Position numbers and translations under genes: made by a program | The notes under the pieces: model-generated | The model's input: the letters and a program-made list of their open reading frames with translations, nothing else | The model's database searches: none | What the model was told of the DNA's origin: nothing | Part shown: positions 15,168 to 42,680 of the stretch, piece after piece | Layout: the number at the start of each line of letters is the position of its first letter | How positions within the stretch are numbered: the stretch's first letter is position 1 | DNA from: an uncultured Lachnospiraceae bacterium | GTDB taxonomy: Bacteria > Bacillota > Clostridia > Lachnospirales > Lachnospiraceae | Reading direction: 5' to 3' | Assembly (NCBI GenBank): GCA_930972465.1 | Contig: CAKNHF010000018.1 | Span: 1-59,909, forward strand | Length of the DNA: 59,909 nt

Positions 15168-16778
15168 CTACGCTGTCTGATAGTGATCGACAATCTTTCT
15201 TTCGTTCTTCTCATACTGATCGGCACATTTCTCAAGCGCCTGTGCAAGACGTCCCAGCTCATCCGCTCTGTACTCCAGATTTCTCGCCAGCGAGGTCATC
15301 TTAAAATACAATGCCTGCTTTGTGAGCAGTCCGAAGTCCACGCTCTTCCTGACAGCCCGGATTCTCTGCGCCTCTCTGTCCAGCTCGGTCTGCTGACTCC
15401 TGAGTTCCGAAGATATCCGGCGCATCATCCTCGTATCGGTTCTGAACCAGCTGTAATCCGCCGTCTTTCCCCAGCTTTTGATCCACTCTATAAAGTCATT
15501 CCCGATATCCTGGATATAATCTATGAAAGCACTGAAAGCCTCCACCGCTTTTGCAAATGCCTCTCCGAGTTTCTCTATCATATCCCTGATAAACTTAACC
15601 AGCTTATACAACAGAGATACGGATACCAGAAGATTCAGTGCCAGAGGTGCGAGCACGATAACCGTGACGCCTATAATCGCCGGATGGATGTTCGTCTCCT
15701 CTGAGAATCTTCTCAGAAGATCAGCAAGAACCTGCCTTCCTTCCTCTGACCCTATGATATTGAATACCACCGGTACGATGGTATCAGCTCCAAACGAAAG
15801 TATATCATCAACTGATACATGATCTCCGTCTACCCCGACTGTCCTTCCCTCAAGATTCTCCAGTATCTGCATGATTAACATAGCCGCGGCGTCCTTCTGA
15901 TCGTCCGGAAGACTCATCAGATATTCCGAAAGTCGCTCCGCAAGGTCCCCAAGCGGTCCCCTTTCTGTCTCCGGTGTCAGAACAGAGATAAATTCGCCGT
16001 CTTCATAGCGGAAATACATATTGACCATATGGAACCCTTCATAATCCCCCCGCATTCCTCCGTCTGGGTTCTCCGTTGTTTCAAGATATATGGTGTGATC
16101 CTTTACTATGATGGGATTGATAAGAGGACTTACATAGTCGTTATATCCGTTGATCGCATACATCTTATCAAGGATTTCCTGATATCCTTCTTCTCCGTAT
16201 TTTTCTTTGAACATCTCGATGGCTTCGTCTGAGAACCCCTGTCCGTCCATGGAGTAACATGTGTCGATCAGATCATTGTTCTCAGCCATAAGGGTCACAT
16301 ACTGCGATTTGTTTCCGCCCTTGGAGTGTCCTGTTATGATGATGTGATCCTCCTCCGTCCATCCGTATTTTTCTACCAGATAGTCAAAATATCTGGCGGC
16401 CTCCTCCTGCTGCTGCGTGGATGCTTCTGTCACTCCGTGTGCATTGTCAATCCACCCGCCGTCTCCGGTGCCGCAGTATGAGACATATATCTCGCCTGAC
16501 GGGAGCTCAAAAGCACAGGCAACGGTCTCTGAGTTGAACATATCTCCCTGATTCCAGCTCTGTCCGAGTATCTTTGTATCCCCGAATCCAGGATACCGTT
16601 CTACGGCATCGGACAGTATCTCATACGCCTGTATCGCATCCGCGTCTCCTGTCTCAGCGATCTGGTCGCGTGCTCTGAGCAGGACTTCCTCCAGTGTGCC
16701 CCCCTCAAAATGGTCTGCATACTCCCAGGAAGTAAAGACATTTAAAATTGCCGCAAGATTCACTTCACTCTCATTCAT
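15168..16778 (-). CDS. Type VII-secreted lipase with reverse domain order (TslA-like)
   Basis: 536 residues. The N-terminal half is a DUF2974/lipase-3-like alpha/beta-hydrolase with nucleophile Ser152 in IITGHSKGGNK and a likely catalytic His at about 250. A hydrophobic segment follows at about 363-395, then a long helical C-terminal domain (about 400-536) ending with YEKNE, the YxxxD/E signal of type VII substrates. Staphylococcus aureus TslA is an established type VII phospholipase with this reverse order, targeted by its C-terminal helices, with small helical partners and a lipoprotein immunity protein. All three elements are encoded here side by side. The ATG at 16778 is chosen because GGAGG, inside the end of the upstream gene, is 8 bases before it. 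Enzyme specificity is inferred. Confidence 0.82.
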   Translation of the reverse strand: MNESEVNLAAILNVFTSWEYADHFEGGTLEEVLLRARDQIAETGDADAIQAYEILSDAVERYPGFGDTKILGQSWNQGDMFNSETVACAFELPSGEIYVSYCGTGDGGWIDNAHGVTEASTQQQEEAARYFDYLVEKYGWTEEDHIIITGHSKGGNKSQYVTLMAENNDLIDTCYSMDGQGFSDEAIEMFKEKYGEEGYQEILDKMYAINGYNDYVSPLINPIIVKDHTIYLETTENPDGGMRGDYEGFHMVNMYFRYEDGEFISVLTPETERGPLGDLAERLSEYLMSLPDDQKDAAAMLIMQILENLEGRTVGVDGDHVSVDDILSFGADTIVPVVFNIIGSEEGRQVLADLLRRFSEETNIHPAIIGVTVIVLAPLALNLLVSVSLLYKLVKFIRDMIEKLGEAFAKAVEAFSAFIDYIQDIGNDFIEWIKSWGKTADYSWFRTDTRMMRRISSELRSQQTELDREAQRIRAVRKSVDFGLLTKQALYFKMTSLARNLEYRADELGRLAQALEKCADQYEKNERKIVDHYQTA

Positions 16779-16783
16779 CTTCT

Positions 16784-17482
16784 TCACCTCCAGTTTGCAT
16801 AATAGAATTCATATGCTTTGTCCATTGCGAAATAGCATCTGCCGCTGAACCAGTCCTCCCGCGAGATCCAGTCATGATAATTTGTTTCATCTATCCGGGC
16901 ACAGGCTGCCTCATCCTGTGTGACAAACAGATTCCCGTCCAGCCGGATCTTTCTGTCTTCCAGCTCCTGCCGGAGATTCTCCAGCCGGGTCTCTTTGCGC
17001 GCCGCATCCCATTTCTCTTCTGCAACGATCACTGCTGCAAGAAGCGTATCCCGATCCTGAATGATATCCTCCACGCTCATCTCCGGACCCATATTATCCG
17101 GAAACTGCGAGGACGCGGTCAGAAAAATCACCCTGCTCCGGGGATATACATTCCGTACGGCATGCTCCAGCTCTGTCTGTATTTCATCCTCATATTTACA
17201 GCCCATGTAATTGTCATAGTAAACAGCTTCTCCGTCAGGAACGATCTTCTTTCCGGCTTTGATCAGCTGTCCGGGGAGGGAATCACATTCCAGATGTGCT
17301 GCGCAGTTCTCACTTCCGAGCTTCTTAAACTGCCATTCCACAAACCGGAAATCCTCTCCGTATTTTTCTTCCATCCTGGAAACGATCTTTTCCTTTTCTG
17401 ATGTTATCTTTAACATGGCACATCCGCTTCCTCCTGTCACAGTTAATATTATCAATGCTGCAATAAGCAGTTTCTTTCTCAA
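16784..17482 (-). CDS. Lipoprotein, candidate immunity protein for the lipase
   Basis: 232 residues with a short lipoprotein signal (GGSGCA, Cys21) and a charged mixed alpha/beta domain with no recognised fold. It starts at TTG, 9 bases after GGAGG. It lies immediately upstream of the lipase gene (5-bp gap) and contains that gene's ribosome site. In S. aureus, TslA is neutralised by the lipoprotein TilA encoded next to it, so an extracytoplasmic immunity role is a strong inference. A lysine- and acid-rich helix of about 25 residues at 150-180 may contact the effector. Confidence 0.7.
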   Translation of the reverse strand: MRKKLLIAALIILTVTGGSGCAMLKITSEKEKIVSRMEEKYGEDFRFVEWQFKKLGSENCAAHLECDSLPGQLIKAGKKIVPDGEAVYYDNYMGCKYEDEIQTELEHAVRNVYPRSRVIFLTASSQFPDNMGPEMSVEDIIQDRDTLLAAVIVAEEKWDAARKETRLENLRQELEDRKIRLDGNLFVTQDEAACARIDETNYHDWISREDWFSGRCYFAMDKAYEFYYANWR

Positions 17483-17496
17483 ATCTGTCAGCCTCC

Positions 17497-18030
17497 TCAG
17501 AACTTTACCCGAAGCCGCGTATTCCCGATCCTGATAAGATCATTATTTTTCAAAGCACACGGCCGGGTGATCCTCTGCCCGTTGACTTCCGTGTGATTCT
17601 TTGATCCTGCATCTTCTATGTAGATCATGCCGTTTGCCGCAAACAGACGGCAGTGAAAGTTTGACACTCTCATATCATTTTTTATGGTAAGGAAATTTTC
17701 CATTCCTTTTATATTCTGTGCACGCCCGATCCCTATGCTGTCCCGGAATCTTGCGGTGTAATTCTCCCCCCTCGTCACTTCCTGGAGACAGATGTGATAC
17801 ATGGCTTTCCGGCTGCCCTGCAGTATATAGGTGCCGCCGCTCTGTTCCGTTGTCCCTCTGAACATCCTTCCCGAATCCGCTCCGCTCTTCTGTGTGTCTA
17901 TATCCATACCGCCCTGCATGACGATATGGTTTTCCCGGTGTTTTCTGATGAAAATCCACACAAGAAGACCGGCAAGCAGAAGAACCGCGGTTATGATCAG
18001 GATGACCAGAAGGATCTCAAGTTCCGTCAT
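17497..18030 (-). CDS. Single-pass membrane protein with FHA domain
   Basis: 177 residues: membrane helix at about 5-28, charged linker, and a C-terminal FHA domain (about 90-177) with MRVSNFHCRLF, EDAGSKNH and TEVNGQRI in the places of the family's SxxH and NG motifs. FHA domains bind phospho-threonine. The start overlaps the stop of the preceding WXG100-like gene by four bases (ATGA), so translation is coupled. It probably links the kinase/phosphatase module of the locus to the secreted lipase group. Confidence 0.88.
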   Translation of the reverse strand: MTELEILLVILIITAVLLLAGLLVWIFIRKHRENHIVMQGGMDIDTQKSGADSGRMFRGTTEQSGGTYILQGSRKAMYHICLQEVTRGENYTARFRDSIGIGRAQNIKGMENFLTIKNDMRVSNFHCRLFAANGMIYIEDAGSKNHTEVNGQRITRPCALKNNDLIRIGNTRLRVKF

Positions 18031-18329
18031 GATTCCCTCTCGGCCGCGATCTGTGCGGCCCGCTCTTCGGCAAGTCTGACCTGTCTTGTCACATTCCGGA
18101 AGACCTCCGCCGTGCTGCGCACATCCCCGGCCGAGCGCTCCATCTTCTCCTGAAGCCTGGACGCCTTTCTCATATACGCTTCCGCTCCGGCTCCTTTCCA
18201 GGCTCCTCCCAGCTGCTGCATCGACTCTTCATAGCGGGAGGAGACAAGCTTTTCCAGATCTGCCGCTATCTGCTCCAGTTCCTCTATCTGGGCATTCGCC
18301 TTTTGAAAATCAAACTCCAGAAATCCCAT
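18027..18329 (-). CDS. WXG100-like small helical protein (WKG)
   Basis: 100 residues, two long helices with a central AWKGAGAEAY turn, the WXG motif. There is no YxxxD/E near the C-terminus. It is the last of six consecutive small helical genes and the nearest to the lipase pair, so it is a candidate partner that hides the lipase targeting helices, like TlaA1/TlaA2 of the TslA system. Confidence 0.85.
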   Translation of the reverse strand: MGFLEFDFQKANAQIEELEQIAADLEKLVSSRYEESMQQLGGAWKGAGAEAYMRKASRLQEKMERSAGDVRSTAEVFRNVTRQVRLAEERAAQIAAERES

Positions 18330-18339: not shown

Positions 18340-18666
18340 CTATACTATCACGTCCGTGGGCAGTCCGTCTGCCTCGCCTTCCGCCGATGTCTCATTTGAT
18401 ATATAATTCTGAGCGATCTCTTCGAGAATCTCTGCCGTCTCCCGAAACCGACCCAGAGTCTCTTCAATCTTTGTCCGGCAGTCCTGATAAACCGCGCGGT
18501 GAGTTTCTCCCGCCTCCCCGCACCAGTAATCCGAGGAACGTTTTACGGACGACTCTATCCTGTCAAACCGTTTTTCAACAGCGCTGATCCGATTCAGTAC
18601 ATCCCCCGCCTTTCCTGCAAGGGCTTCCGGTGAAACCTTTATCACTACACTCTGCAGTCCGTCCAT
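18340..18666 (-). CDS. WXG100-like small helical protein (WCG)
   Basis: 108 residues, helical hairpin with YWCGEAGE at the turn (WXG with Cys). C-terminal YISNE fits YxxxD/E. It begins with VSPEAL and ends with DGLPTDVI, nearly the same as the paralogue at 19383-19697 (NGLVTDVI), so these two form a subfamily with an extended tail. Confidence 0.85.
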   Translation of the reverse strand: MDGLQSVVIKVSPEALAGKAGDVLNRISAVEKRFDRIESSVKRSSDYWCGEAGETHRAVYQDCRTKIEETLGRFRETAEILEEIAQNYISNETSAEGEADGLPTDVIV

Positions 18667-18682: not shown

Positions 18683-18985
18683 TCAAACTCTGATCCGATT
18701 TACAATGCTCTCTATCGACTGCTCGCAGCTTACATATTCTCTGGATGCATATTCCATGCACGAGACATATTCCGCCAGTTCCGTGCACACCTGAAGTGCA
18801 TTCTCAATATCCTCAGCCATTCTGCTCTGATATGCTGCGGCTGCCGGTCCCTCCCAGAGCGAATTCATACCAACTGTATCATCCCTGAGAAGCTCAAGCT
18901 CATTTTTTATCTCTTTTATTTCATCCGCAATGCTGTCTTTATCCGAGTTCAGCATATCAGTCTCAATCTCTATCCGGTCACTCAT
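18683..18985 (-). CDS. WXG100-like small helical protein (WEG)
   Basis: 100 residues, acidic two-helix hairpin with SLWEGPAAAAY and a C-terminal YVSCE (YxxxD/E). Contains three cysteines in the second helix, unusual for the family. One of six small helical proteins. Confidence 0.87.
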   Translation of the reverse strand: MSDRIEIETDMLNSDKDSIADEIKEIKNELELLRDDTVGMNSLWEGPAAAAYQSRMAEDIENALQVCTELAEYVSCMEYASREYVSCEQSIESIVNRIRV

Positions 18986-19000: not shown

Positions 19001-19363
19001 TTAAAGTTCTATCTTTACATTTTCTTTCAGAAAACGGTTGAATTCTATTCTGATCCGGCCTGTCATTACAGGCTCCCATACACGCTTTTCACCTTCATAC
19101 ATGTCAACGATATTCTTCTCTGTCTTTTCTGTGATCCGGCAGACTTCCGCAAGCCCGTCAGACATCTCCGTGATCTGCTGCTGAAGCTCTTCCAGTGTTG
19201 TCTCCAGAGCCTTCAGCCGGCTGATCGTCTCCTCCGTATACGACTGCCGGCTGATCTCTCTTTCCACATCACACAGCCGTTCTCTGATCCGGGCTGTCTC
19301 CCGGGCCTGCCCGGAAAGCTCTGATGATATATTTTTTAACTCTTCTGACCGAATCCTAATCAC
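19001..19363 (-). CDS. Small helical protein without WXG, secretion partner candidate
   Basis: 120 residues, almost entirely helical and highly charged with coiled-coil character at about 10-80. No WXG turn; a single tryptophan lies in KRVWEPV near residue 95. It starts at GTG, 8 bases after GGGG. Its size and its place among WXG100 genes suggest an LXG-type helical partner or chaperone. Confidence 0.7.
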   Translation of the reverse strand: MIRIRSEELKNISSELSGQARETARIRERLCDVEREISRQSYTEETISRLKALETTLEELQQQITEMSDGLAEVCRITEKTEKNIVDMYEGEKRVWEPVMTGRIRIEFNRFLKENVKIEL

Positions 19364-19382: not shown

Positions 19383-19697
19383 CTACTGGATCACATCTGT
19401 CACCAGTCCGTTCGCCTCGTCGGCGCCTGCCTTGTCGCTTTCCTGATATACGCTTGCCATCTCTTCCAGATCGGATGCATGTTCCTGAACCATCCTCACG
19501 ATGCGCTGAATATCGTCTTCCAGTCCCTTGAATTTTGTCATGTATGTGGTTGCCGCTTCGCCTTCCCAGATTGAATTCAGGCCTGTTACAAGCTGCATCA
19601 TCTCTCCTGTAAGTGTGTTAATGGTGCTTCCCTGATTTGAAAACTCTCCTGCTGTTGAAATTAATGCTTCCGGTGATACTCTGATAATTCCTTCCAT
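19383..19697 (-). CDS. WXG100-like small helical protein (WEG, TDVI tail)
   Basis: 104 residues, hairpin with SIWEGEAATTY at the turn and YQESD as the YxxxD/E signal. The N-terminal VSPEAL and C-terminal NGLVTDVI are shared with the protein encoded at 18340-18666. Probably co-secreted or a partner of another helical protein of this group. Confidence 0.9.
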   Translation of the reverse strand: MEGIIRVSPEALISTAGEFSNQGSTINTLTGEMMQLVTGLNSIWEGEAATTYMTKFKGLEDDIQRIVRMVQEHASDLEEMASVYQESDKAGADEANGLVTDVIQ

Positions 19698-20211: not shown

Positions 20212-20460
20212 TCAGACCAGAACCAGGCTCATTCCGGTTGTAATCCCGCAGTCTCCGGCGGTTCTCTCCGGAGGAAGGATCCGCCTTCCTGACGGATCGC
20301 ACAGCATCAGATCCTCATCCTTCCCGGTAAACGCACACTGCTCCTGCAGGCAAATCATATCCCGTATCTGCCTGGCCACCATGCCAAGCTGCATATTCTC
20401 GTCGATCTGGAAATCATACCGTTTTCCCATTACAGGCACGTCAATATCCACAAGTATCAT
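20212..20460 (-). CDS. esaB: EsaB/YukD-like ubiquitin-fold protein
   Basis: 82 residues from the ATG preceded by AGGAG, with a 20-bp overlap on the preceding gene. The sequence has the ubiquitin-like pattern of YukD/EsaB: a beta hairpin (ILVDIDVPVMGKRYDF), a helix, DLMLCDPSGRRI and a terminal GMSLVLV strand. EsaB is a cytosolic regulator or component of type VIIb secretion. The longer frame from 20487 has no good ribosome site. Confidence 0.85.
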   Translation of the reverse strand: MILVDIDVPVMGKRYDFQIDENMQLGMVARQIRDMICLQEQCAFTGKDEDLMLCDPSGRRILPPERTAGDCGITTGMSLVLV

Positions 20461-20866
20461 CCCGCATCTCCTCTTTCCATCGTTCAAATTCCTCTCTGCC
20501 GAAAAGGAGCAGTTCCAGTGTCCTCTGTCTCGTCCGGCAGAGAGACGTCACCAGCACCTCCCGCCCCCTCTCATAACAGTAATATGTCTCATCCTCAATC
20601 ACCATCGGATAATCCTGTTCCGGCCATGCCATACACTGCAGCATCCGACCTGTTCGCTTCTCTATCCGGAATACTCCGCCTTCATTCTCCAGGAAGCCTT
20701 TCCGGTTCATGCCGGCCAGCACTCTGACCGCCTCCTCGTCTGATACCGGTTTCTGATCCAGACAGATTCCGTTGACCGACTCTGCGCCGATACTTTCAAG
20801 GAGCAGAAATATCTCCCGGTATTCAAGAAGTATCCCTTTCTCCATACATCCATGTCCTGCCTCCAT
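20441..20866 (-). CDS. Unrecognised type VII-locus protein, possibly EspG-like
   Basis: 141 residues, cytosolic, mixed alpha/beta. The order is a helix (EYREIFLLLESIG), a winged-helix-like helix ending in MNRKGFL, RTGRMLQCMAWPEQD, then several beta strands. This resembles in pattern one half of the EspG chaperones of mycobacterial type VII systems, which have a helix, GL turn and LarP segment before a beta sheet. The match is by eye only. It starts directly after the LytTR gene and overlaps the EsaB gene. A chaperone or scaffold role is inference. Confidence 0.6.
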   Translation of the reverse strand: MEAGHGCMEKGILLEYREIFLLLESIGAESVNGICLDQKPVSDEEAVRVLAGMNRKGFLENEGGVFRIEKRTGRMLQCMAWPEQDYPMVIEDETYYCYERGREVLVTSLCRTRQRTLELLLFGREEFERWKEEMRDDTCGY

Positions 20867-20867
20867 G

Positions 20868-30449: not shown

Positions 30450-30471
30450 ATAAATTTCCCTCAATTGAAAA

Positions 30472-30508
30472 GCAAGCTGCCCAAATATTCCTATTCAGAC
30501 AGCTTTGC
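30472..30508 (-). terminator. Imperfect hairpin between the surface-protein and kinase genes
   Basis: Minus strand GCAAAGCTG pairs with CAGCTTGC (one bulge), followed by TTTTCAATTG. It is weak and inside the long gene block, so partial termination that lowers expression of downstream genes is the likely effect. Confidence 0.4.
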
Positions 30509-33500: not shown

Positions 33501-36500
33501 CTGCCTGACCGTCATGATAATTCGATACAGAAACTCCGGGAAGATATCCTTTTTGCAGATCCGCATAAGTATATCTGGAATATTCCGTCTGATTCTTTTC
33601 CTTCACAGCTATATACAAATGTCCGAGATCATTTACAAAGTTTCTTTCCTTTACTGTTACGGATGCGGTTCTGTCGGCTTTGTAATATACGCCGTTCTGA
33701 GCGCTGTTATTATCATATGTATAGCTGACTTCAGGTGCCGTAGTGTCGATCGCCATATATTCGGAATCTTTTGTCACTACTTTTCCTGCTCTGTCTGTAA
33801 CGACTGCTGTTACTTTTATATTATTGCTGTTATGTTCAGTGCTGTCGACAGAGAATGAAAATCCTTTTTCTGAAAGTGACTTGTTCTCTTCGAGCAGTTC
33901 AGCCAGAGAAGGGGTATCTCCAAGTTCTGTGGTCCAGCTTTCCTTCGTCTCTTTTACGTTGCCTTTCGCATCTGTCGATGTGACTGTAACAGCGATTGAT
34001 TTTACTCCGGAAGCAGTATCGCTGGATGACTCGAAATCCTCTGAATTCTGAACAAAATCATTTGCATAAACTGTTACCTTAATATCTTTGTCATAAACAG
34101 GAAGCGTTCCATTAACGGAAGTCGGCTGTTCATCTCTTACGATCTTAACTGACGGAACCGTATAATCGTAAACAGCTCCGGTTGATACGTAAATACATCC
34201 ATTGCCTACATTGTCTGCAGCACGTACAAACAGAATATAGTTTCCTTCTTCAATATCCTCTTTCGTGCCTTCTCCGAGAATCACCTCTGCATGGCCTGCG
34301 CTGATATCCTCAATGGTCTGATAACCTGTTTCAGACAGCGCCTCGCTCTTAATGTCCGCTTCATTAAATCCGTTCTGCGTAATCTTTACACTCTTATACT
34401 CGATGCTTGCGACTCCGCTTCCCGCAGATTCCGGATCCATGGAATCCTCTGCGTAGTCGGCAAATGTAATATCTGCTTTGATGATCTGATTATCGGACGC
34501 ATAATCGCCGAACCCAAACGTGATAATCTCAGCCCACTGGCTCACAGCCTTCGTCACACCTTTTAAGCTGGATGTAACCTTCGGTGAAGAATTATCCATA
34601 GATACATTCAGCTTCGCATCCGCGCTGGCGAACTCTTCTCCATCAACAATTCTCTTCAGCTGTACCTTATATGTCTCCGTACCTCTTTCATTTTTGTCGA
34701 TAACCAGCGGATCGGCAGCTGTTATCTCCCGGCCCTCGTAATACATTGTATTGTATCCGGCATTTTCGTTGACGCTCATCACAAGTTCTGCGCCGTTGAA
34801 ACCTTCCTCAGTATAACTTTCTCCGTCCTGGGATGCCGCCTCATCTTCTTTTGCTGTTTTAGCCCATATAGTATCACCGTCAAACCAGCAGTGCCCGCTT
34901 GAGCTGTCCAGCGAAGCATAGTCAAGAATGTCATTGATTTTTTGCGCTCCTACTTCAAGGTCACCTTTACTTATGCTTTTCTCCTCGAATTTATAATTGT
35001 AATTTTCAAAATTATCCTGTGTTGTCTCAATCGACAGAATATTGCTGAACTCTCCCTGTTTTACCCACTTTTCACTGTCAACAAATTCCTCCGGAATGGA
35101 GATGGACGGCGCGGCTGCAAATGCATCGTCAAATCCTTCTTCATTGACATATCCGCTGATTTTGTACTTGTCGTCTCTGTTGTCATTGTCAACATAGGTG
35201 ATCGTACTGTAGGTATCCGGTCCGTATACCACTTCCTGATTCTTTACTTCTACAGTAAGTACCTTCGGATCAATAGTAAATGTAAGGCTCTCTGCTGCAT
35301 TTACAGATTCGATCCACTCCTTTTTTACACTGTTATCAAGGCTGTATTTTCCAGCCTCATCGCCGGTAAGTTTTATGTCTGTAATTGTAACCTGCTGTGC
35401 TGCCGGAGTATTGCTGCTGTCCACGCGGACATCTTTTTCTTCTGTGCGGGCAGTAATCTGCAGTCCCACAGAATCTGCCAGCATATCTTCTGAAAGGCCG
35501 GTTACCTGAAACGCGTCTGACGGAACACTGTTCTTTCCGTCATAGATTTTTGAATCCTTCTCAGTGTCAATATTTACAGAAACTGTTTCCGGATCAAGAT
35601 CCACTTCCTGTTTATTAATCGTCAGCTCACATGTTACAGAGTCGACTACTTTATCGTAATTATCTTTTTCAACTCTGCTTACAGTAATTTTAACCGGAGT
35701 TTTTCCGGTAATATCTTTTGTGATAAATTCTCCTGTATCTTCATTTATCTCTACTTTGTCGGAATCACATGAATATTTAAATACAGTATAATCAGTTGCA
35801 TATTCTCCTAATTCAGGGAATATATCTGTGATTTTCTGCCCGGACGGAGAGTAAGAAGTCTCAGCTTTTAAATCCTCTCCGGCAATCTCCATTGCAGGGA
35901 TAACATTTACTTTTACGGTCTCTGTAGCGGAGTCCATAGTCCATATCTTCTCTCTTGTAAACGTAAAAGTAACGCTTAAAGGCTTCTCTGCTTCTTCCAG
36001 TTCCTTCTCATCCAGATCAATAGAAAATGTGATCTTTCCTCTATCCTTTTTTTCATCGGACAACTTTTCTATGATACCTGTCTGATTATCATCCGCAACA
36101 TATGAATAGGTAAATTCTGCCCAGTCATTCGGCGGTGTAATAATAATATCAAAATCTCCGCTTACCGTAGCAGGCGCATCTATTGAGCCGAACGGAGCCT
36201 GACCATAGTTCGATGAAACGGTATTGCTCTCTGTCTGATCATATGCCTGATTTTCCGTCACAACAGCTTTGAAGTTTCTCTCTCCGCTTATGATCCATCT
36301 CTCTTCATAAATGCATGAAGCTGTATCCTGCCCTTCCGGAATCACAACACGTTCTATCTCCTCATTGTCCTGATAAAAGACAACTTCCGTGTCACAAACA
36401 GCCTGGATGTCTTTCTCCAGCTTGGCCGTAAGCTTGATCTGCGTTGGGTACTCCTTATTAATACCGGTCCAATAATCTGTTGCCTCTGCTGATAAAGCCA

Positions 36501-37185
36501 CTGTAATCGGTTTTTTTACAGTTGTCACTTCAATCTCATTGGAATACTGTCCCAGACTGTTTACCGCACAGATCGTACTTGTTCCAGCTCCCACTGCTCT
36601 GAATTCAGCTGTTGCTCCCTCTGTCTTAATCAGTTTCAGACAATTGCTGTCGTATATCCATTCATAACTCAGTTCGCCGTCTGCTGACGCGCTGGTCACA
36701 CTGAATACCGCCTGATCGCCGCATGTCCAGTTTGTGGTATCCGCAGAACCTCCTATCTGTTTGATGGATTCTGTACGATAATTCAGGAACAGTTCACTGT
36801 AGTTTTCCCCGCCTTCAATCGGCGTCACGTAACATTCCTCTTCCTGAACGTAGCCATCCTTAGAAGCGGTGACCGTATACTCTGTGTTCTCATTCAGTAT
36901 AAGGGTAACATACCCATCGCGATCCGTCTTATCTTCTACTCTGCTTTCCGAATCGCCTGATATTTCTGCAGCGACCGTTACCCCTGAAAGTGCATTCGAT
37001 CCTTTATCTGCAACATAGAGCGTATACTCAATCTGAGCCGCTGAATCTTCTCCGCCGCCCGGCACAGGCTCTTCAGCCGAAGCCGGTATCACCGGAAGCA
37101 CTGTCGTCAGGAGCAGCGCTGCAGCGGCTGTCAGTGCACATATCCTTTCTCTTAGATTTTTAAGCTTTCTCATTTTTACTCTCAT
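30532..37185 (-). CDS. Giant Ig-repeat surface protein with C-terminal membrane anchor
   Basis: 2,217 residues. A basic start and signal peptide (cleavage near PASAEE, about 38) are followed by a carboxypeptidase-regulatory/Cna-like domain (about 48-115), several Ig-like domains, MBG-like beta domains (about 560-720), and an array of Ig-like repeats (about 1130-2100) with DxTxPxIxxxYD..N openings, YYNAxRTATxxxxExNF cores and DLAGN ends. A final membrane helix (about 2187-2208) and RKRREQQK tail anchor it; there is no LPxTG. It is probably an adhesin or a surface extension of the secretion machine. GGGAG nearly touches the first ATG, so the ATG at 37173 is an alternative start. Confidence 0.85.
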   Translation of the reverse strand: MRVKMRKLKNLRERICALTAAAALLLTTVLPVIPASAEEPVPGGGEDSAAQIEYTLYVADKGSNALSGVTVAAEISGDSESRVEDKTDRDGYVTLILNENTEYTVTASKDGYVQEEECYVTPIEGGENYSELFLNYRTESIKQIGGSADTTNWTCGDQAVFSVTSASADGELSYEWIYDSNCLKLIKTEGATAEFRAVGAGTSTICAVNSLGQYSNEIEVTTVKKPITVALSAEATDYWTGINKEYPTQIKLTAKLEKDIQAVCDTEVVFYQDNEEIERVVIPEGQDTASCIYEERWIISGERNFKAVVTENQAYDQTESNTVSSNYGQAPFGSIDAPATVSGDFDIIITPPNDWAEFTYSYVADDNQTGIIEKLSDEKKDRGKITFSIDLDEKELEEAEKPLSVTFTFTREKIWTMDSATETVKVNVIPAMEIAGEDLKAETSYSPSGQKITDIFPELGEYATDYTVFKYSCDSDKVEINEDTGEFITKDITGKTPVKITVSRVEKDNYDKVVDSVTCELTINKQEVDLDPETVSVNIDTEKDSKIYDGKNSVPSDAFQVTGLSEDMLADSVGLQITARTEEKDVRVDSSNTPAAQQVTITDIKLTGDEAGKYSLDNSVKKEWIESVNAAESLTFTIDPKVLTVEVKNQEVVYGPDTYSTITYVDNDNRDDKYKISGYVNEEGFDDAFAAAPSISIPEEFVDSEKWVKQGEFSNILSIETTQDNFENYNYKFEEKSISKGDLEVGAQKINDILDYASLDSSSGHCWFDGDTIWAKTAKEDEAASQDGESYTEEGFNGAELVMSVNENAGYNTMYYEGREITAADPLVIDKNERGTETYKVQLKRIVDGEEFASADAKLNVSMDNSSPKVTSSLKGVTKAVSQWAEIITFGFGDYASDNQIIKADITFADYAEDSMDPESAGSGVASIEYKSVKITQNGFNEADIKSEALSETGYQTIEDISAGHAEVILGEGTKEDIEEGNYILFVRAADNVGNGCIYVSTGAVYDYTVPSVKIVRDEQPTSVNGTLPVYDKDIKVTVYANDFVQNSEDFESSSDTASGVKSIAVTVTSTDAKGNVKETKESWTTELGDTPSLAELLEENKSLSEKGFSFSVDSTEHNSNNIKVTAVVTDRAGKVVTKDSEYMAIDTTAPEVSYTYDNNSAQNGVYYKADRTASVTVKERNFVNDLGHLYIAVKEKNQTEYSRYTYADLQKGYLPGVSVSNYHDGQADYDVTAYDDNRTITFDLTFSGDNEYDWYCYVEDTNGKSAQTEPDFFVLDKTAPVLKNGGVKYYVDGKDVTAQVENGSLFTSKEVKAVVSIDETNFAAEGSGFADGQMAVNLTASDNEGNNVDVTEKFIDAMTSADSWSNWDEKNGLTREMSMTFGDDANYQFGFTYTDLAGNSVTYNARRFTHDHTNPTGSVTYDTNAGKETWRTFFDLITFNRFKQTEVPVTFTGEDMTAGVKSIEYYKAYEPMSYEEIEALPSRDWTSGTSFTVRPNEQFVPYLKVTDRADNTEYFSSEFAVVADNTQASPEIRITAGNPSNGIYNSSVPFHISVTDPTSGNTYAGLQSVYYEVRRDGQVTQSGNYDSALQPASRRVKNIERDEVVDAQLNNSNDVEIYVRAVDNAGNVSEASQELSIDITEPTIQVTYDLNSPLNDRYYNATRTATVVVTERNFDESEVRFDITNTDGTQPSISGWSHSSDSGVSDSATHTCRVTFSADGDYTFTLNTTDLAGNDSNYTRVDEFTIDQTDPTIQVSYDNNNDAVAGYYNAERTATITINEHNFNASEVNAQITARLQNRGVSAPGIGGWSTRGDVHTASVTFSVDADYTFDVDYTDLAGNAAADYDQDSFTIDQTDPEIEFFDIEDKSANKDTVAPGVSYSDINYDENGVKITIEGAEPDHSEEAVDGRHTDIPNGESIKMADFEHTEDNDDVYTMTAEITDRAGNTTEESIVFSVNRFGSTYVFSDETREYLAPEEGDEYIYTNEPQDIEVTERNVDTLVNNGIFYGRDGELVNLEEGTDYTVRESGSDVSWKEYRYDISKDNFEQEGHYTVTIDSEDRAENLMNNQTKGLDIEFVVDKTAPSVVITGIEEDAYTADTRDMVINVTDNTAAKQVEVLIGGQVVETFDQEMIQESGGKLTYTINSSSSPQLVEAVAVDKAGNEAVSEAHTVLVSANLFVQYINNTPLLIGSIILLLVIAGAVCYIVIIRKRREQQK

Positions 37186-37651
37186 TCTCCCTTCTTTCGC
37201 TGATAGATAAGCTTTTTTCTATATAAAAGTAAATTTTCCCATTCAGCAGGAAATGCAGGTACAGGGCAGCAAGCATAATAAAAAGCACCACTGCTGCCAC
37301 AGTCTGATTCGCACTGGCATTAACCATACAGTAAACTGTGACGATAAAACTTATGATCAGAATGATATCGGTTATCTTCGACACCCTGTTACTGAAAAAC
37401 CTGATTGCCGCCGGTTTCTTCTCATTCCTGATTTCCTCAGGCATTTTCTTTTCAGACTTTCTCCACAACAGCACATACCCCACGCATCCCGCAATCAGGC
37501 CTGCCCAGAACATCAGTCCTGCCGCATAGCCCGCGGCATTCAGATTGCCCTCGCTGTCAAGCGCGAATGGTATAAGCAGCGGAGTGACAGCCGACACCAT
37601 GAAGGCAGCCGACACACCGAGAAAGCCTTTCCTGGCTGTTTCCATTTCCAT
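37160..37651 (-). CDS. Four-helix membrane protein, unknown
   Basis: 163 residues from the ATG 5 bases after GGGGAG. Membrane helices at about 10-29, 41-61, 94-113 and 117-136 with a Lys/Glu-rich loop between the second and third, and a charged C-terminal tail. It overlaps the start of the giant gene by 26 bases, so their translation is linked. No family is recognised; it may assist insertion or anchoring of the surface protein. Confidence 0.7.
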   Translation of the reverse strand: MEMETARKGFLGVSAAFMVSAVTPLLIPFALDSEGNLNAAGYAAGLMFWAGLIAGCVGYVLLWRKSEKKMPEEIRNEKKPAAIRFFSNRVSKITDIILIISFIVTVYCMVNASANQTVAAVVLFIMLAALYLHFLLNGKIYFYIEKSLSISERRENESKNEKA

Positions 37652-37677
37652 AACATCTCCCCTTCTCACTCTTGTTT

Positions 37678-38379
37678 TTATATCAATTCATCTGTATGTA
37701 TCAGCATTGTATCTTTGATTATGATAAACTGTCCGGGGAATCTGCCTTTTCCGGCAGCGTCATCACTCTGACAGCTGCTCAGCACAACAGTCTCTCCGTA
37801 ACCGGGATCCGCCGCTGCTTCTGCTCTCTCAGCCACAGTGCTGTCCAGCAGCTGTGTCTCTTCATTGCCGCCATGGTCCAGAAGCTGTGTCTCTTCGTTT
37901 CCAGCGTCTTTCAGCAGCTGTGTCTCTTCAGCCCCCATGTCCATAAGAAGCTGCGTCTCTTCACTGCCCATATTCATAAGCAGTTCTGTCTCCTCGCTTC
38001 CCTCGGATGGCGCCGCTGTGGGAGCATATGTTTTTTCTTCCGCGCCGGCCTGCCGCGGGATCTTAGCCGTGGGCTCCCTTCCCGTATCAGTCGGCTGGGT
38101 CACCGGATAGCTTACAGCGGGTATACTTCCGCTCGGAGTGCGCTGAAGATCAGAACTGGTATTGGGGATATAATCTTCCCGGAGTTTTCCCGTTCTGGCA
38201 TTGGCCTCCTCCATCATACGGATCGTACGCTTCTGTCCTCTTCCTGTCATGAAGTCGAATACGTCCCGGATCCGGAATACAAAAAACAATATAATGCTTA
38301 TTCCTATGAACAGTATCATCAGGCAAAGACACACTATGAATCCTGTGTGATACAGATTTATAAACTCAGCTTCCAGCAT
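37678..38379 (-). CDS. Membrane protein with five tandem ETQLL motifs
   Basis: 233 residues: membrane helix at about 13-36, cytosolic linker rich in Pro/Thr/Ser, and five 11-residue repeats at 129-178 with the core EET(E/Q)LL, then GETVVL at 195-200. The tail has no recognised fold. Threonines in ETxxL contexts next to FHA proteins are known phospho-acceptors for PknB-type kinases (for example the ETTS motif of GarA/FhaB), so this looks like a multivalent docking protein for the FHA proteins of the locus. It overlaps the kinase gene upstream by 14 bases. Confidence 0.8.
   Translation of the reverse strand: MLEAEFINLYHTGFIVCLCLMILFIGISIILFFVFRIRDVFDFMTGRGQKRTIRMMEEANARTGKLREDYIPNTSSDLQRTPSGSIPAVSYPVTQPTDTGREPTAKIPRQAGAEEKTYAPTAAPSEGSEETELLMNMGSEETQLLMDMGAEETQLLKDAGNEETQLLDHGGNEETQLLDSTVAERAEAAADPGYGETVVLSSCQSDDAAGKGRFPGQFIIIKDTMLIHTDELI
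37840..37998. repeat. 33-bp in-frame tandem repeat, five copies
   Basis: DNA repeats of 33 bp (core AGCTGTGTCTCTTC on the plus strand) encode the five ETQLL units. Copies differ by several bases, mostly outside the ET(Q/E)LL codons, so the motif seems kept by selection. Confidence 0.8.
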
Positions 38380-40120
38380 ATGTGTCTCCTCCTGTTCCTC
38401 TGCCGGAGCCGTTGGACGAGAACGCGATCTCTACCTGATTCTCCGCCAGTGTGATTTCAGATAATATCTCCTGTTTTTTCTCTGCGTTTGCCGCTGTTGT
38501 TTCAGGTCTGCTGGTTGAAAATGTATTTGCCTCCAGATAGTCTTCTATATCCGAAAGTTTATTCAGGATATCATCTTCTTCAATTCCGGAATCCTTCAGC
38601 TCCAGTACATTCGTACCGATCTGGGATACGATTCCTTCGCATATTACAAGGGCAGTCTGAGGTGAAGCCTCTGACAGGAAATCTTCTTCCGTGATAAGCT
38701 GCACTGCTTCCCAGTAATCTCTCGGGGATGTGCTCGACTCATATCCGGAAACATCCGGCCGGTTCATCTCAGTCTGGTATTTTGCAACCATGGACAGGCG
38801 CTCTGCCATATCTCTCTCATTTGCATCAAGATCCCGGCTCTGAGCCGCTTTCTCAAACCATGCCTGTGACAGCTGTGTATTTCCTTCTCCTTCATAGCCG
38901 TACAGATAAGCGATGCCCATATCAAAGGCAAACTGGCCGTACTCTTTGCTCCGTTCGAAATAACTTTCATTGGTCCGGTTTCCTTTGCCTGTATATCCTA
39001 ATATGGCCGTCATGCTTGCCGCCTCGTCCTGGGAGAAATCAAAATCAGAATTCCCCACCCCGTAGGTAAACAGATTCAAAAGCTCCAGATAAGCTTCCGA
39101 CCTTCCGGGGTCAACCTTGATTGCGCTTTCATAGAGTTCCTGCTTCTGAGCCGGATCTGCCGCGGTTGACGCCTCGTCCATATAGTAGTCATAGCTGTTT
39201 CCCGTTGCCAGAACCTCAGCCGTCTTGAATCCGATGCCCCCGACCAGAGAGAGCACAGCCAGAGAACAGGAGGCTATGAATGTTTTCCATTTAAGCTTCT
39301 GTTTTTTCTTATACTCGATGTCAAGTTCACTGTAATGTTCCAGAGCATACATAAGCTCCGCGCAGGACTGATATCTGTCTGCGGGATTTCTCTGTGTACA
39401 TTTCAGAACGATTTCTTCCAGTCCGGAAGACAGATTCGGATTCCACTTCCTTATGGGATACATCTCATAAGGCGGAAGGCTCGGATTATGTCCTGTCAGC
39501 AGATGATACATGGTGGCGCCCAGCGTATAGATATCCGTACGGGCATCTGTCTGACCATGTCCTCCATACTGTTCCGGAGCCGCATATCCCTGCGTTCCCA
39601 GGCAGGATGTGTCCTCGATGCTTGTCTCCTTGAATTCTCTTGCCGTTCCGAAGTCGATGATCTCAATCTGACCGTTGGGCTTGAGCATTACATTGGCCGG
39701 CTTCAGGTCTCTGTATATAATAGGAGGCTTTCTTGAATGCAGATAGCCCAGCACATCACAGATCTGCTTTGCCCATTCAACCACTCTCTCCTGGGGCTGA
39801 GCCCCTTCCTTCTTGAGCCAGTAATCGAGAGTCTTTCCTTCTATGTAATCCATTACAATGAGAAATGTATCCTCACGGTCGATCACATCGATAATGCTGG
39901 GAAGATTGGGATGATTCAGCTTCTTCAGAATATCGGTCTCCGCAATCAGTCCCTGCTTTACGACTTCATAATCCTTTACACCGTCTTTTCTTACTTCTTT
40001 GATCGCCCACTGCTTGTTGGCACGTTCGTTCATCGCGAGATATACAACGCTCATGCCTCCCTGGCCGATCTTGTTCAATATCTTATATTTACCGTCAACT
40101 ATTGATCCTATTTCCAGCAT
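38366..40120 (-). CDS. Membrane Ser/Thr protein kinase
   Basis: 584 residues from the ATG 8 bases after AGGGG. The cytosolic PknB-type kinase (about 10-270) has GQGGMSVVY, Lys41, YRDLKPAN (Asp138), DFG (156-158), a threonine/serine-rich activation loop and GYAAPEQ. A membrane helix (about 284-306) precedes an extracellular helical, TPR-like domain of about 280 residues. All catalytic residues are present. It lies between the phosphatase gene and the ETQLL protein gene, its likely substrate. It has the same topology as the second kinase at 28560-30449. Confidence 0.93.
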   Translation of the reverse strand: MLEIGSIVDGKYKILNKIGQGGMSVVYLAMNERANKQWAIKEVRKDGVKDYEVVKQGLIAETDILKKLNHPNLPSIIDVIDREDTFLIVMDYIEGKTLDYWLKKEGAQPQERVVEWAKQICDVLGYLHSRKPPIIYRDLKPANVMLKPNGQIEIIDFGTAREFKETSIEDTSCLGTQGYAAPEQYGGHGQTDARTDIYTLGATMYHLLTGHNPSLPPYEMYPIRKWNPNLSSGLEEIVLKCTQRNPADRYQSCAELMYALEHYSELDIEYKKKQKLKWKTFIASCSLAVLSLVGGIGFKTAEVLATGNSYDYYMDEASTAADPAQKQELYESAIKVDPGRSEAYLELLNLFTYGVGNSDFDFSQDEAASMTAILGYTGKGNRTNESYFERSKEYGQFAFDMGIAYLYGYEGEGNTQLSQAWFEKAAQSRDLDANERDMAERLSMVAKYQTEMNRPDVSGYESSTSPRDYWEAVQLITEEDFLSEASPQTALVICEGIVSQIGTNVLELKDSGIEEDDILNKLSDIEDYLEANTFSTSRPETTAANAEKKQEILSEITLAENQVEIAFSSNGSGRGTGGDTYAGS

Positions 40121-40131
40121 ATATCTATCCC

Positions 40132-40917
40132 CTAACACGTTTTAAGGAGAATGACTGATATGTTGTCTCTCTCCTGACGTGATTTATTCAATTCTGTACA
40201 ATAGACCGCCGCATCCCTGAGATCTTTTTCGGATCTCATCTTTTCAGGATTCATGATCTTCTTGAATTCATCTTCTGTAATCAGATGTCTGAAACCGTCT
40301 GAACAGATGATAAATAATTCGCCTTTTTCATAGGTTCCGTGTGTAAACTCGGGAATGATCACCTCGCTGGCCCCCACACACTGAAGCAGAACATTTCTCT
40401 GCGGATGGTTCCTTGCCTCTTCCGGGGTCAGCCTGCCCTGATCGATCTCTCTCTGTATAAAAGTCTGGTCTTTTGTGATCTGAGTCATATTTTCGGAATC
40501 TAATTTATATACCCTCGAGTCTCCCACATTTAACGTATAATATCTCCCCCCCGTAAGGAGCAGAAGCGCAGCCGTAGTTCCCATTGCCACATGCGATTCT
40601 CTTCCGTGTTCCGCGATCTTTCTGTTGACATCCAATATCAGATCATTCAGATCATTCTCCAGCTCCATGCGGTCGATCTCGTTGTCTTTTCTTTTCTCAT
40701 ATAATATCCAGGGAAATTTTTCTTCGAACCAACTTGAAAAAGCCCTAACTAAAGTGGCACTGGCAACCTCACCCTTGGCAAGGCCGCCCATTCCATCGCA
40801 GACTACGGCGAGCATTACCTCACCGTAGTCTGTGAAAGCCTCTTTAATTAAGACAGAATCCTGATTCGTATTCTTTCTGATTCCAATATCTGTATGTACA
40901 GCGCTCAAAAATTCCAT
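40132..40917 (-). CDS. PP2C-family protein phosphatase
   Basis: 261 residues, a complete bacterial PPM/PP2C domain: metal ligands in NQDS, VVCDGMGG and ICSDGFRHL, and the NVGDSR block. It removes phosphate from Ser/Thr and is the usual partner of PknB-type kinases; the kinase gene starts 11 bp after its stop. It probably resets the ETxLL/FHA interactions of the locus. Confidence 0.95.
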   Translation of the reverse strand: MEFLSAVHTDIGIRKNTNQDSVLIKEAFTDYGEVMLAVVCDGMGGLAKGEVASATLVRAFSSWFEEKFPWILYEKRKDNEIDRMELENDLNDLILDVNRKIAEHGRESHVAMGTTAALLLLTGGRYYTLNVGDSRVYKLDSENMTQITKDQTFIQREIDQGRLTPEEARNHPQRNVLLQCVGASEVIIPEFTHGTYEKGELFIICSDGFRHLITEDEFKKIMNPEKMRSEKDLRDAAVYCTELNKSRQERDNISVILLKTC

Positions 40918-40940
40918 CTCTATCCACCTGCGTCACTTAC

Positions 40941-42680
40941 TTATGATAAATGAAATTCAAACTCTTCATCTGACAGCTTGATCGTAGATCTGTCCGTAAG
41001 CAGAGTATCCTTATATGGACTGAGCTGTACACCATTTACAAATGTAAAGTTGCTTGATTTCTGATCCGCGATATAATAATCGGAACCTTTCTTTGTGATC
41101 ACCGCGTGGAATCTGCTGACGGATGTATTATCAGAGATGCAGTAATTCACTCTTCTTCTCTCTTTACCGATCGCAAAATTCTGAGAAGTGATCATAATCT
41201 TCTCACCGTTTTTCTTTCTGATCAGATAAGCACCGCCGCCTGCGCCGCTTAACAGAGTTGTCTCTCCTGCTCCGGAATCAAGAAGAGTTGTCTCTCCTGC
41301 GCCCTCAGCCTGAGGAACCGTTCCGTTTCCGGGTGCGTACATCTGCGGCTGATGCATCGGCTGCGGGTTCTGCACCGGCTGTACAGGAGGTACCGGAGGA
41401 ACATTTCCGCCGCCTGCAGCATTTGCTTTTTTCTTCTTTCCTGATGTCGCAAGTACAATGACAACAATAATGATGATGACAATGATCAGAACCGCTGCTC
41501 CGATTCCCGCGATCAGAATAATATTCAGTCCGCTCTGCTCCTCAAGGCCGTCGACAGCTGCTCTCACATCGTCGATTGCTGTCTGAATCTGTGCCTCCGT
41601 AGCATCCGTGCTGGCTGCGACATCCTCTGCAGATTCGATTGTATCGTTGAGAACCTGTACGCTCTCTTCCGTATATCCTTCTGTGTCCATAGCTTTCGCT
41701 CTGCTGATCTCATTATTGAGTTCAGTCAGAAGTGCCTGGTTCTGTTCTTCTGTGTCAGTGTCAGCTGTATCGTCGCTTCCGCTCTGATTTACTGTTCCTG
41801 CGCTTGACGCTACTGCGCCTCCGTCCAGAGCCGCACGGTCATGAACACCGTCTGTGTAAGCGATACCGAATGTGTCAAGTGCACTCTTCAGTGCATTGAT
41901 CTGAACTGTATAACTCTTTGTTCCGACATTATTGCCGTAGATGAATGTGTTGATTCCGATTACTTCATTAAGCGCATTCAGAAGCGGTCCGCCTGAGTTT
42001 CCTGAATTCAGGGGAGCTGTATGCTCAAATACATCCGCCTTCTCTCTGACTGTCACCTTGGAGATCGTACCGTCAACAACAGATACGTCAGCCTTTGTAT
42101 TGAATTCCTTGTTCTCTATGGAATCTGACGGGAATCCAAGCGCATATACGACATCCTGCTGTTTCATGATGCTGCTGTCGCCAAGAACGAGCGGCTGTCT
42201 GTCATAGATCTTATCTGAAAGTTTCAGAGCCACGAAGTCCATCGCAGAACTCTGTACGCTTTCGTGGATCGTTGCCTCAACGCTCATATCTCTGTTCGCG
42301 TATACGAAAACTTTGAGATGAGGATCATTGTTCGGAAGCTCGTCGAGGTTCAGCATATTCATAATCGCTTCCCTCTTTGTCACACCGCTGTTGTCAACCT
42401 CATCCAGGTTGAAGATATGGTAGTTTGAAAGCACATATTCCTCATTGATCAGGAAACAGGTTCCTCCGTAAAGAAGTGTACGGGTTCCATTATCATCAAC
42501 ATACGCCAGATAGACCTGAAGAATACCGTCTGTCGGATCATCTGTCGTAGCCTGAACCTGATCCTCTTCAATAGGATCTGTCCCCTCTTCTCCTGCCGCC
42601 AGCACTGTCACAGACATTGTAAGCATCATGCACATTGCCATGACGAGCACCAGCAGGCGTTTAATAAACTTTTTACCCAT
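40941..42680 (-). CDS. Membrane-anchored trypsin-like protease with FIVAR and FHA domains
   Basis: 579 residues from the ATG 8 bases after AGGAGG. Order: signal sequence (1-29), trypsin/DegP-like protease with His88 (LSNYH), Asp148 (SAMDF) and Ser229 (GNSGGPL); a FIVAR-like helical unit (about 318-380); membrane helix (386-410); Pro-rich linker; two ETTLL motifs (463-467, 473-477); and a cytosolic FHA domain (about 488-579; SVSRFHAV, DQKSSN). It could cut secreted substrates outside while its FHA and ETTLL parts connect to the kinase module inside. It is the first gene of the block. Mycobacterial type VII systems use a membrane protease (MycP) of another family. Confidence 0.9.
   Translation of the reverse strand: MGKKFIKRLLVLVMAMCMMLTMSVTVLAAGEEGTDPIEEDQVQATTDDPTDGILQVYLAYVDDNGTRTLLYGGTCFLINEEYVLSNYHIFNLDEVDNSGVTKREAIMNMLNLDELPNNDPHLKVFVYANRDMSVEATIHESVQSSAMDFVALKLSDKIYDRQPLVLGDSSIMKQQDVVYALGFPSDSIENKEFNTKADVSVVDGTISKVTVREKADVFEHTAPLNSGNSGGPLLNALNEVIGINTFIYGNNVGTKSYTVQINALKSALDTFGIAYTDGVHDRAALDGGAVASSAGTVNQSGSDDTADTDTEEQNQALLTELNNEISRAKAMDTEGYTEESVQVLNDTIESAEDVAASTDATEAQIQTAIDDVRAAVDGLEEQSGLNIILIAGIGAAVLIIVIIIIVVIVLATSGKKKKANAAGGGNVPPVPPVQPVQNPQPMHQPQMYAPGNGTVPQAEGAGETTLLDSGAGETTLLSGAGGGAYLIRKKNGEKIMITSQNFAIGKERRRVNYCISDNTSVSRFHAVITKKGSDYYIADQKSSNFTFVNGVQLSPYKDTLLTDRSTIKLSDEEFEFHLS

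Follow-up and report, generated by a model that had tools for sequence, protein, structure and literature searches.

Background

Type VII secretion systems (T7SS) of the subtypes T7SSc to T7SSj were defined by Garrett, Higginson and Palmer in 2024 (PMC11217815). According to the available parts of that paper, they have transmembrane (TM) kinases, PPM phosphatases and FHA proteins, as well as a giant Ig-like protein, TsxI, and the one-TM tail proteins TsxH and TsxK. Control by phosphorylation was suggested for them, with the type VI secretion system (T6SS) as the model. As far as found in the literature, phospho-control of such systems has so far been proposed from gene lists only. In T7SSb, the FHA domain of EssC is described as having no phosphothreonine (pThr) pocket (available parts of PMC9600267 and PMC10765036).

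The window, i.e., the whole stretch of DNA analysed here (59,909 nucleotides), is the complete contig CAKNHF010000018.1 (C18) of an uncultured Lachnospiraceae gut bacterium (GCA_930972465.1, genome G000; 2.81 Mb, 64 contigs, 86% complete). A T7SS block occupies positions 42686-15106, with all counted genes on the minus strand. It encodes the ATPase EssC, EsaB and WXG100 proteins, together with two Hanks kinases (PK1 and PK2), a PP2C phosphatase, membrane FHA proteins, a one-TM protein with a long cytosolic tail (the tail protein) and a giant surface protein. Judged from its genes, the window almost certainly holds an EssB-less T7SS of the kinase/phosphatase/FHA kind. The best explanation overall, given a probability of about 0.6, is such a system with a phosphorylation switch inferred from the sequence. 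A sequence-only reading had proposed a distinct clostridial version of type VII secretion, which holds; its suggestion that no described system was known to have the full set was wrong in kind, because T7SSc to T7SSj were already published.

Comparison with described systems

Since the gene sets in the available text of PMC11217815 match, the window is regarded as a member of that broad kind. By its gene content it appears to fit none of the subtype definitions given there in full. T7SSe and T7SSj share with it an EssC with FHA domain, WXG100 proteins, EsaB, a TM kinase, a PPM phosphatase and the apparent lack of EssA, EssB and EsaA, and also a one-TM protein with a short unstructured tail and a large surface protein, Ig-like in the published systems. 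The TPR-tailed kinase of T7SSj is represented by PK2. Counterparts of TseD (TM kinase), TseF (PPM) and TseI (giant protein, with Ig-like being the description of TseI) of T7SSe are present; for TseH and TseK the window has one such protein, the tail protein, likened to them by description. Unlike T7SSe and T7SSj as described in that text, the window has two kinase families, an HtrA-TM-FHA protein, a TM-FHA protein, a LytTR regulator, the small protein p141 and a TPR/carboxypeptidase-regulatory-like (TPR/Cpd) protein. The DUF6382-FHA protein TsxJ, given there as a feature of T7SSe, f and j (TseJ, TsjJ), was found neither among the FHA proteins of the locus nor elsewhere in G000 (86% complete); each of the 26 other genomes scanned carries DUF6382 at some site. 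The clade of the window EssC (W clade, see below) is separate from the main DUF6382-bearing clade in our own trees, which were built without the reference sequences of PMC11217815. Three of the 75 W-clade loci (L195, L207, L224) do have DUF6382 no more than 15 kb from EssC, so this gene by itself draws no sharp boundary between the W clade and T7SSe/j.

T7SSb shares with the window an EssC with N-terminal FHA domain, EsaB, WXG100 proteins and a lipase layout like that of TslA. It differs in that no EssB, EssA or EsaA was found for the window, where kinases with intact core replace the pseudokinase and the FHA pocket residues are largely kept. T7SSi (Vallitalea) likewise has a LytR-like regulator and is reported to have an EspG-like gene, only suspected at the window; unlike T7SSi, the window has kinases with extracellular parts, a PP2C and a giant surface protein. 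T7SSd, described in the available text as a system of Actinomycetota without EsaB or phosphatase, does not fit a locus with EsaB and PP2C whose relatives are Lachnospiraceae. T7SSc, described there with an FHA-less EssC and the cytosolic vWA protein TscE, differs from the window, where EssC has an FHA domain; no vWA hit was obtained among the scanned proteins of the window locus. The threonine phosphorylation pathway of the T6SS, a secretion machine unrelated to the window T7SS, follows the same logic, with a membrane kinase, a phosphatase and an FHA reader setting assembly (available text of PMC11217815 and general knowledge).

While known in kind since 2024, the window system is probably a new sub-lineage, and no later description of the W lineage was found in the open-licence literature. 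New here are the division of loci, inside a single bacterial family, into those with EssB and those with kinases; the tail protein as proposed phospho-acceptor, together with its fusion to the kinase in one relative; sensor-TM-FHA proteins whose linkers bear motifs; and the gene string with LytTR and p141.

The EssB-or-kinase split

EssC genes from 250 genomes of the family and from a scan of named genomes gave 141 distinct loci, with EssC shorter than 900 aa left out and 8 of 80 named loci removed as duplicates. Trees were rooted on three FHA-less EssC, of which G446 alone was confirmed as T7SSg-like from its gene content (DUF5050, Tad-type genes); they contain no reference TsxC sequences of T7SSc-j. 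Domain models were built from the window genes and two sets of relatives, and distant FHA domains and kinases may escape them, chiefly outside the W clade.

EssC of the EssB-bearing kind group in a single clade of 12 members (support 1.0); for 10 of them EssB itself is present in the fetched stretch. Signalling genes (kinase, PP2C or extra FHA) lie within 15 kb of EssC in none of these 12 loci versus 100 of the 129 others. With at least 8 kb available on each side, the counts are 0/8 and 63/68 (Fisher 7e-8, a figure that overstates the certainty because related loci are not independent). One genome, G241, has loci of both sorts, one with EssB (C26) and one with EssC and vWA-FHA (C97), so the split is between loci and not between genomes.

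EssB (PF10140) and EssA (PF10661) gave no match in G000. EsaA (TIGR03929) gave none above cut-off there, and one below it on another contig (83.4 of 122 bits). The three genes, which the sequence-only reading had not recognised at the locus, were thus not found above cut-off elsewhere either, although in a genome only 86% complete absence alone is no proof. Among 64 genomes, selected by the authors from those with a long EssC match, EssB exceeded the cut-off in 11, and in none of 24 window-type or near genomes (21 in the W clade; G088 and G101 just outside it; G006 with a partial EssC only), of which G147 gave a sub-cut-off match of 18.8 bits. EsaA was above cut-off in none of 35 genomes scanned; EsaA-like matches below it lie on the EssB contig in 11/11 EssB genomes and on the EssC contig in 0/24 window-type or near genomes. 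Of the 11 EssB genomes, only 3 gave an EssA match above cut-off. Among window-type genomes one, G003, did so, on a contig other than that of its EssC; in G188, also window-type, a sub-cut-off match falls inside the HtrA-FHA gene. The EssA scan appears not to be informative. An ordinary T7SSb with EssB elsewhere in the genome was rejected on the scans for the three genes.

An IQ-TREE analysis of 47 hand-picked representative EssC places the EssB clade (UFBoot 100) together with loci where kinases and DUF6382-FHA proteins are frequent (UFBoot 98); with FHA-less EssC as the root, the EssB clade therefore falls inside a set of kinase-bearing lineages. EssC of T7SSj is described as grouping with those of T7SSb and T7SSf; the window EssC falls outside the EssB plus DUF6382 group (UFBoot 98) in this tree, which does not include reference TsjC and TsfC. 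A tentative and rather doubtful idea is that the form with live kinases and FHA readers is the older one, that the EssB pseudokinase and the pocket-less EssC FHA are a later frozen form in which a switched contact became permanent in one clade, and that at the same time the W lineage is a separate subtype whose ETxLL tail would act as a phospho-counter clustering FHA proteins around EssC. Descent of EssB from PK1 or PK2 by sequence was rejected: profile comparison (probabilities of 37% for PK2, 14% for PK1 and 78% for the TPR/Cpd protein) aligned only the TM and the first helical stretch, not the kinase domain. An EssB match in L194 (E=1e-3) is a TPR/Cpd protein and was discarded.

The W clade and its gene string

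The window EssC lies within the W clade, which comprises 75 of the 141 EssC with a support of 1.0. Support was 0.93 in a larger tree, where two members were added, and UFBoot was 100 for eight representatives in IQ-TREE. In the larger tree EssC shorter than 1250 aa were left out, 7 of 13 class-level EssC passed the P-loop filter, and deep nodes are poorly supported. The class-level search gave long EssC matches in 26 of 341 genomes, own genome included; the EssC of two non-Lachnospiraceae genomes, G521 and G522, belong to the W clade. The nearest named relatives of the window EssC are Lachnospiraceae. Named members include Candidatus Mediterraneibacter avicola (69% identity), Candidatus Blautia pullistercoris, Blautia luti, Anaerosporobacter faecicola, Anaerostipes sp. 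992a and Oribacterium sp. KHPX15. LytTR is directly downstream of EssC in 56 of the 65 W-clade loci with room for it, versus 0/11 in the EssB clade and 1/46 elsewhere; the string continues with p141 (49/56) and EsaB (56/56), and an FHA gene is directly upstream of EssC in 41/69. By tree and gene order, the W clade is well supported, mainly Lachnospiraceae, and marked by the EssC-LytTR-p141-EsaB string.

Where a W-clade locus extends at least 8 kb to both sides of EssC (41 loci), genes within 15 kb include a kinase in 32, PP2C in 22, a further FHA protein in 37, an HtrA- or vWA-TM-FHA protein in 24, LytTR in 36, p141 in 36 and EsaB in 41; since contigs or stretches often break off early, these are lower bounds. 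In 40 of the 41, all but L220, at least one signalling gene (kinase, PP2C or further FHA) is present, which bears out the conservation of the kinase-FHA genes with EssC on which the sequence-only reading depended.

The adjacency of LytTR and EssC would also be expected if the kinases acted mainly on transcription (via LytTR) or on envelope homeostasis, with secretion following indirectly. IreK is a precedent for this in the T7SS of Enterococcus faecalis (available parts of PMC10765036 and PMC11217815). Such indirect control leaves the membrane tail protein, the several membrane FHA proteins and the FHA domain of EssC unexplained, and is regarded as quite unlikely.

Gene order bears on another alternative, that a T7SS (PK2 to lipase) and a signalling/surface operon (HtrA-FHA to giant protein) are adjacent by chance. 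The block may be divided behind the giant surface protein by a terminator-like hairpin (30505-30474), and in some W-clade loci the kinase/PP2C genes are on the other side of EssC. However, PK2 and a TM-FHA gene are inside the EssC unit; the order HtrA-FHA, PP2C, PK1, ..., PK2, ..., TM-FHA, EssC, LytTR is kept in five loci of the window subclade (W, A1, A2, A4, A6); PK1-type genes also occur at EssC loci outside the W clade; and signalling genes accompany nearly every W-clade locus, as counted above. Two chance neighbours are considered highly improbable.

Kinases, acceptor motifs and FHA readers

PK1 and PK2 have one TM each and keep the Lys, the catalytic Asp, the Asn and the DFG/DFN Asp (motif pattern; the PK1 Lys by eye). 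With three PrkC-like housekeeping kinases as the root, the kinase tree has one clade for the PK1 type (14) and one for the PK2 type (29). Six Hanks kinases are encoded in the 2.81 Mb genome, two of them at the T7 locus versus about 0.06 expected. Chance co-location of kinases with EssC was rejected on the kinase counts, the clade conservation and the locus contrasts. Two adjacent Hanks kinase genes at G000:C43:1986-4680 (L272), with a non-PrkC-like start by eye, are outside the PK1 and PK2 clades.

Of the 14 PK1 genes, 10 are followed by a gene for a long-tailed one-TM protein. The following gene in G105 starts in that way and runs off the stretch, two further PK1 genes are followed by different genes, and in G058 the tail is fused to PK1. 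This fusion (L039 11612-12940, minus strand) is without the usual PK1 extracellular part, and its tail gave BLAST matches to the A1 protein (E=1e-27) and to the window tail protein (9e-18). In the window tail, seven [DE]Tx[LVI][LVI] motifs, five of them strict ETxLL, stand against 0.08 expected from shuffles, in line with the acceptor motifs listed by the sequence-only reading. The motif was counted five times each in the tails of G153b and G224 and twice in A1, and at least one motif of a slightly looser pattern is present in 7 of 10 complete tails. The tail protein is proposed to be a multi-site phospho-acceptor. In L212 (6852-9906, plus strand) two tandem proteins of about 500 aa, just upstream of EssC, start in an acceptor-like way (NEETAALFVS-/DDTAGLFVS-type); no kinase was found nearby.

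The choice of ligand by FHA domains is largely set by the residue three after pThr, which for ETQLL is Leu. The motif Tx[LIVM][LIVMF] is about sixfold above shuffle level in the linkers between TM and FHA domain of the HtrA-FHA (22 vs 3.4) and vWA-FHA proteins (32 vs 5.1); another part of the same proteins has no excess (12 vs 11.5). The pThr-pocket pattern is present in the EssC FHA domain of 59/69 W-clade members, 17/42 others and 0/12 of the EssB clade (EssC shorter than 1400 aa left out except in the EssB clade), the last in agreement with the pocket-less T7SSb EssC in the available parts of PMC9600267 and PMC10765036. Ser, His and Asn are present in most FHA pockets. The pocket Arg was found in 26/30 vWA-FHA and 39/50 small TM-FHA proteins, which by sequence are the best pThr readers. 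The HtrA domain of the window has the H, the D and the GNSGG serine, and the HtrA-TM-FHA protein is likely a sensor.

Several observations weigh against a phosphorylation switch in such EssB-less systems. Five EssB-less loci with at least 8 kb on each side (G190, L212, L220, L237, L238) have no detected signalling gene nearby. The PK2 type is non-RD, with no HRD Arg in the 31 of 33 members with readable motif and DFN in 22/33. Motif numbers are uneven: only 4 of 7 tails are clearly above shuffles, with one motif in A2 (P=0.08) and none in A4 and B10, and 3 of 10 complete tails have none even under the looser pattern. The linkers of small TM-FHA proteins are not clearly enriched (11 vs 7.0, P=0.09), a control kinase segment is mildly enriched (23 vs 11.8), and over all tiled genes of the W clade the motif is slightly above shuffles (62 vs 42; this count omits the window tail gene, over which a longer antisense ORF took precedence, while the tail-specific counts include it). 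The pocket Arg of EssC is Lys in the window and, among 59 W-clade matches, Arg in 5 and Lys in 23; in HtrA-FHA proteins it is Lys in 16/18 and Arg in 0/18. The GNSGG-type serine pattern is missing in 12 of 22 HtrA-type proteins of the fetched loci, so many of these may be sensors with a dead protease fold.

Some of these points would suit contacts between kinases and FHA domains that are structural and independent of phosphorylation, with kinase activity incidental. Contacts of the EssB pseudokinase with the EssC FHA domain in T7SSb are the precedent (available parts of PMC9600267 and PMC10765036), and the non-conserved pocket Arg of EssC and the non-RD, mostly DFN, PK2 agree with it. The kept kinase core residues, the PP2C at the locus, the Ser, His and Asn of most FHA pockets, and tail threonine motifs far above chance all speak for live signalling instead, and purely structural contacts are judged unlikely.

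Proposed mechanism

Switching of assembly or opening by phosphorylation, as suggested by the sequence-only reading, is plausible from the gene content, and the mechanism given here is held to have slightly better than an even chance. The extracellular parts of PK1, PK2 and the HtrA-TM-FHA protein would sense the envelope or contact. PK1 and PK2 would phosphorylate ETxLL-type threonines on the tail protein and on the linkers of TM-FHA proteins. The FHA domains of the HtrA-TM-FHA protein and of both TM-FHA proteins, perhaps also that of EssC, would dock at the phospho-sites and gather a complex around EssC, which would then export the WXG100 proteins and the lipase. PP2C would reverse the phosphorylated state, LytTR would set expression, and the giant surface protein may take the role of EsaA across the wall. 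The locus, which has many gut Lachnospiraceae relatives, makes phospho-control testable through its candidate acceptor sites, the kinase-acceptor fusion and the contrast with the EssB clade in the same family. If true, such control would explain why T7SSb has a dead kinase bound to FHA domains without a phosphate pocket.

Locus features

The features of the block are listed in Table 1 in the order of the genes on the minus strand. Most genes overlap or are less than 25 bases apart; larger gaps have 60, 67, 151 and 153 bases. ORF and Pfam re-reading found the one-strand inventory of the sequence-only reading right and its coordinates nearly exact. EssC, EsaB, the two kinase-TM proteins, PP2C, the membrane protease and the giant surface protein were recovered by Pfam and profile scans or from the sequence, and Pfam FHA matches gave the four FHA proteins, EssC included. 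That list had passed over LytTR, p141, the TPR/Cpd membrane protein and the small multi-TM protein. Its six small helical proteins became five of WXG100 type (four above the Pfam cut-off) plus a coiled helical protein, 19001-19363, without a WXG100 hit in the Pfam scan.

Table 1. Features of the T7SS block in the window
Positions	Strand	Feature	Basis
40941..42686	-	HtrA/trypsin-like domain-TM-linker with two ETTLL-FHA	Pfam Trypsin_2 and FHA
40132..40917	-	PP2C phosphatase, TsxF-like	Pfam PP2C_2
38366..40138	-	PK1, Hanks kinase-TM-extracellular part, TsxD-like	Pfam Pkinase; YRDLKPAN, DFG; one TM
37678..38379	-	Tail protein, one TM, long cytosolic tail, 7 ETxLL-type motifs, TsxH/TsxK-like	Motif counts
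37160..37669	-	Small multi-TM protein	Homologue in one relative (A1_G148)
30532..37185	-	2217-aa surface protein, signal-peptide-like start, C-terminal TM, TsxI-like	Sequence; homologues in relatives
30474..30505	-	Terminator-like hairpin between surface protein and PK2	Weaker than the 15148-15106 hairpin
28560..30464	-	PK2, non-RD kinase-TM-TPR	Pfam Pkinase; HSDIKPGN, DFN; one TM
26817..28406	-	TM-TPR-carboxypeptidase-regulatory-like (TPR/Cpd) protein	Pfam; weak profile match to EssB TM/helical region
26293..26802	-	TM-FHA protein, N-terminal TM, directly upstream of EssC	Pfam FHA
21591..26270	-	EssC ATPase, N-terminal FHA	FtsK_SpoIIIE and FHA; TIGR03928
20868..21587	-	Receiver-like and LytTR regulator	Pfam; receiver part below cut-off
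20441..20866	-	p141	Short member of an ORF family spanning 137-332 aa
20212..20487	-	EsaB/YukD ubiquitin-like protein	PF08817
19758..20060	-	WXG100 protein	Pfam
19383..19697	-	WXG100 protein	Pfam
19001..19363	-	Coiled helical partner-like protein	Weakly similar to lipase C-terminus (E=0.0025)
18683..18985	-	WXG100 protein	Pfam
18340..18666	-	WXG100 protein	Pfam
18027..18329	-	WXG100-like protein	Pfam, below cut-off
17497..18030	-	Second TM-FHA protein, N-terminal TM	Pfam FHA
16784..17482	-	Lipoprotein-like, candidate immunity protein	Lipoprotein-like start; 4-base overlap with lipase gene
15168..16787	-	Putative lipase effector with Mbeg1-like lipase domain at the N-terminus and helical domain at the C-terminus, TslA-like 'reverse' layout	Pfam
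15106..15148	-	Terminator-like hairpin after lipase, ends block	19 pairs

EssC scored 1090.7 bits with TIGR03928 (cut-off 778.4). The PF08817 match of EsaB (20218-20451) had E=3.1e-5 and 26.3 bits in the genome scan, with a cut-off of 27, and 27.0 bits when scanned alone; by its sequence, the EsaB call is real. The small multi-TM protein and the lipoprotein had no family above cut-off in the Pfam and profile scans. p141 may be an EspG-like chaperone, a suspicion that the sequence does not back: there was no PF14011 (EspG) match in 20 genomes and no convincing Pfam or PDB sequence match. A p141-like gene of 239 aa directly follows an FHA-less EssC in L269 (346-1065, minus strand), a T7SSg-like locus with DUF5050 and Tad-type genes.

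With an N-terminal lipase and a C-terminal helical domain, the window lipase appears to fit the layout of the reverse TslA lipases of T7SSb. Reverse lipases were noted at T7SSe and T7SSg loci in the available text of PMC11217815. Lipase-like N-terminal domains were found in 21 other fetched stretches around EssC, two of them with EssB (G025, G159). The lipoprotein may be the immunity partner of the lipase, the basis being only the start and the gene overlap given in Table 1.

Elsewhere on the contig

Just upstream of the start of the T7 locus, a divergent gene (42923-44374, plus strand) encodes a 483-aa protein with an HTH-regulator-like start by eye and no NCBIfam match. Further along, at 48230-50059 (plus strand), two tandem paralogues match NAD-dependent (SIR2-type) deacylases weakly, with scores under the cut-offs. 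Beyond the opposite end of the block, a dlt-like operon (6358-11980, minus strand) has DltA-, ACP- and DltB-like genes and a gene that is DltD-like by position only, without a hit; named-family scores are below cut-offs except for the general adenylation domain. The operon includes a gene for a diaminopimelate-decarboxylase-like PLP enzyme (9180-10379), and is perhaps a modified cell-wall ester system.

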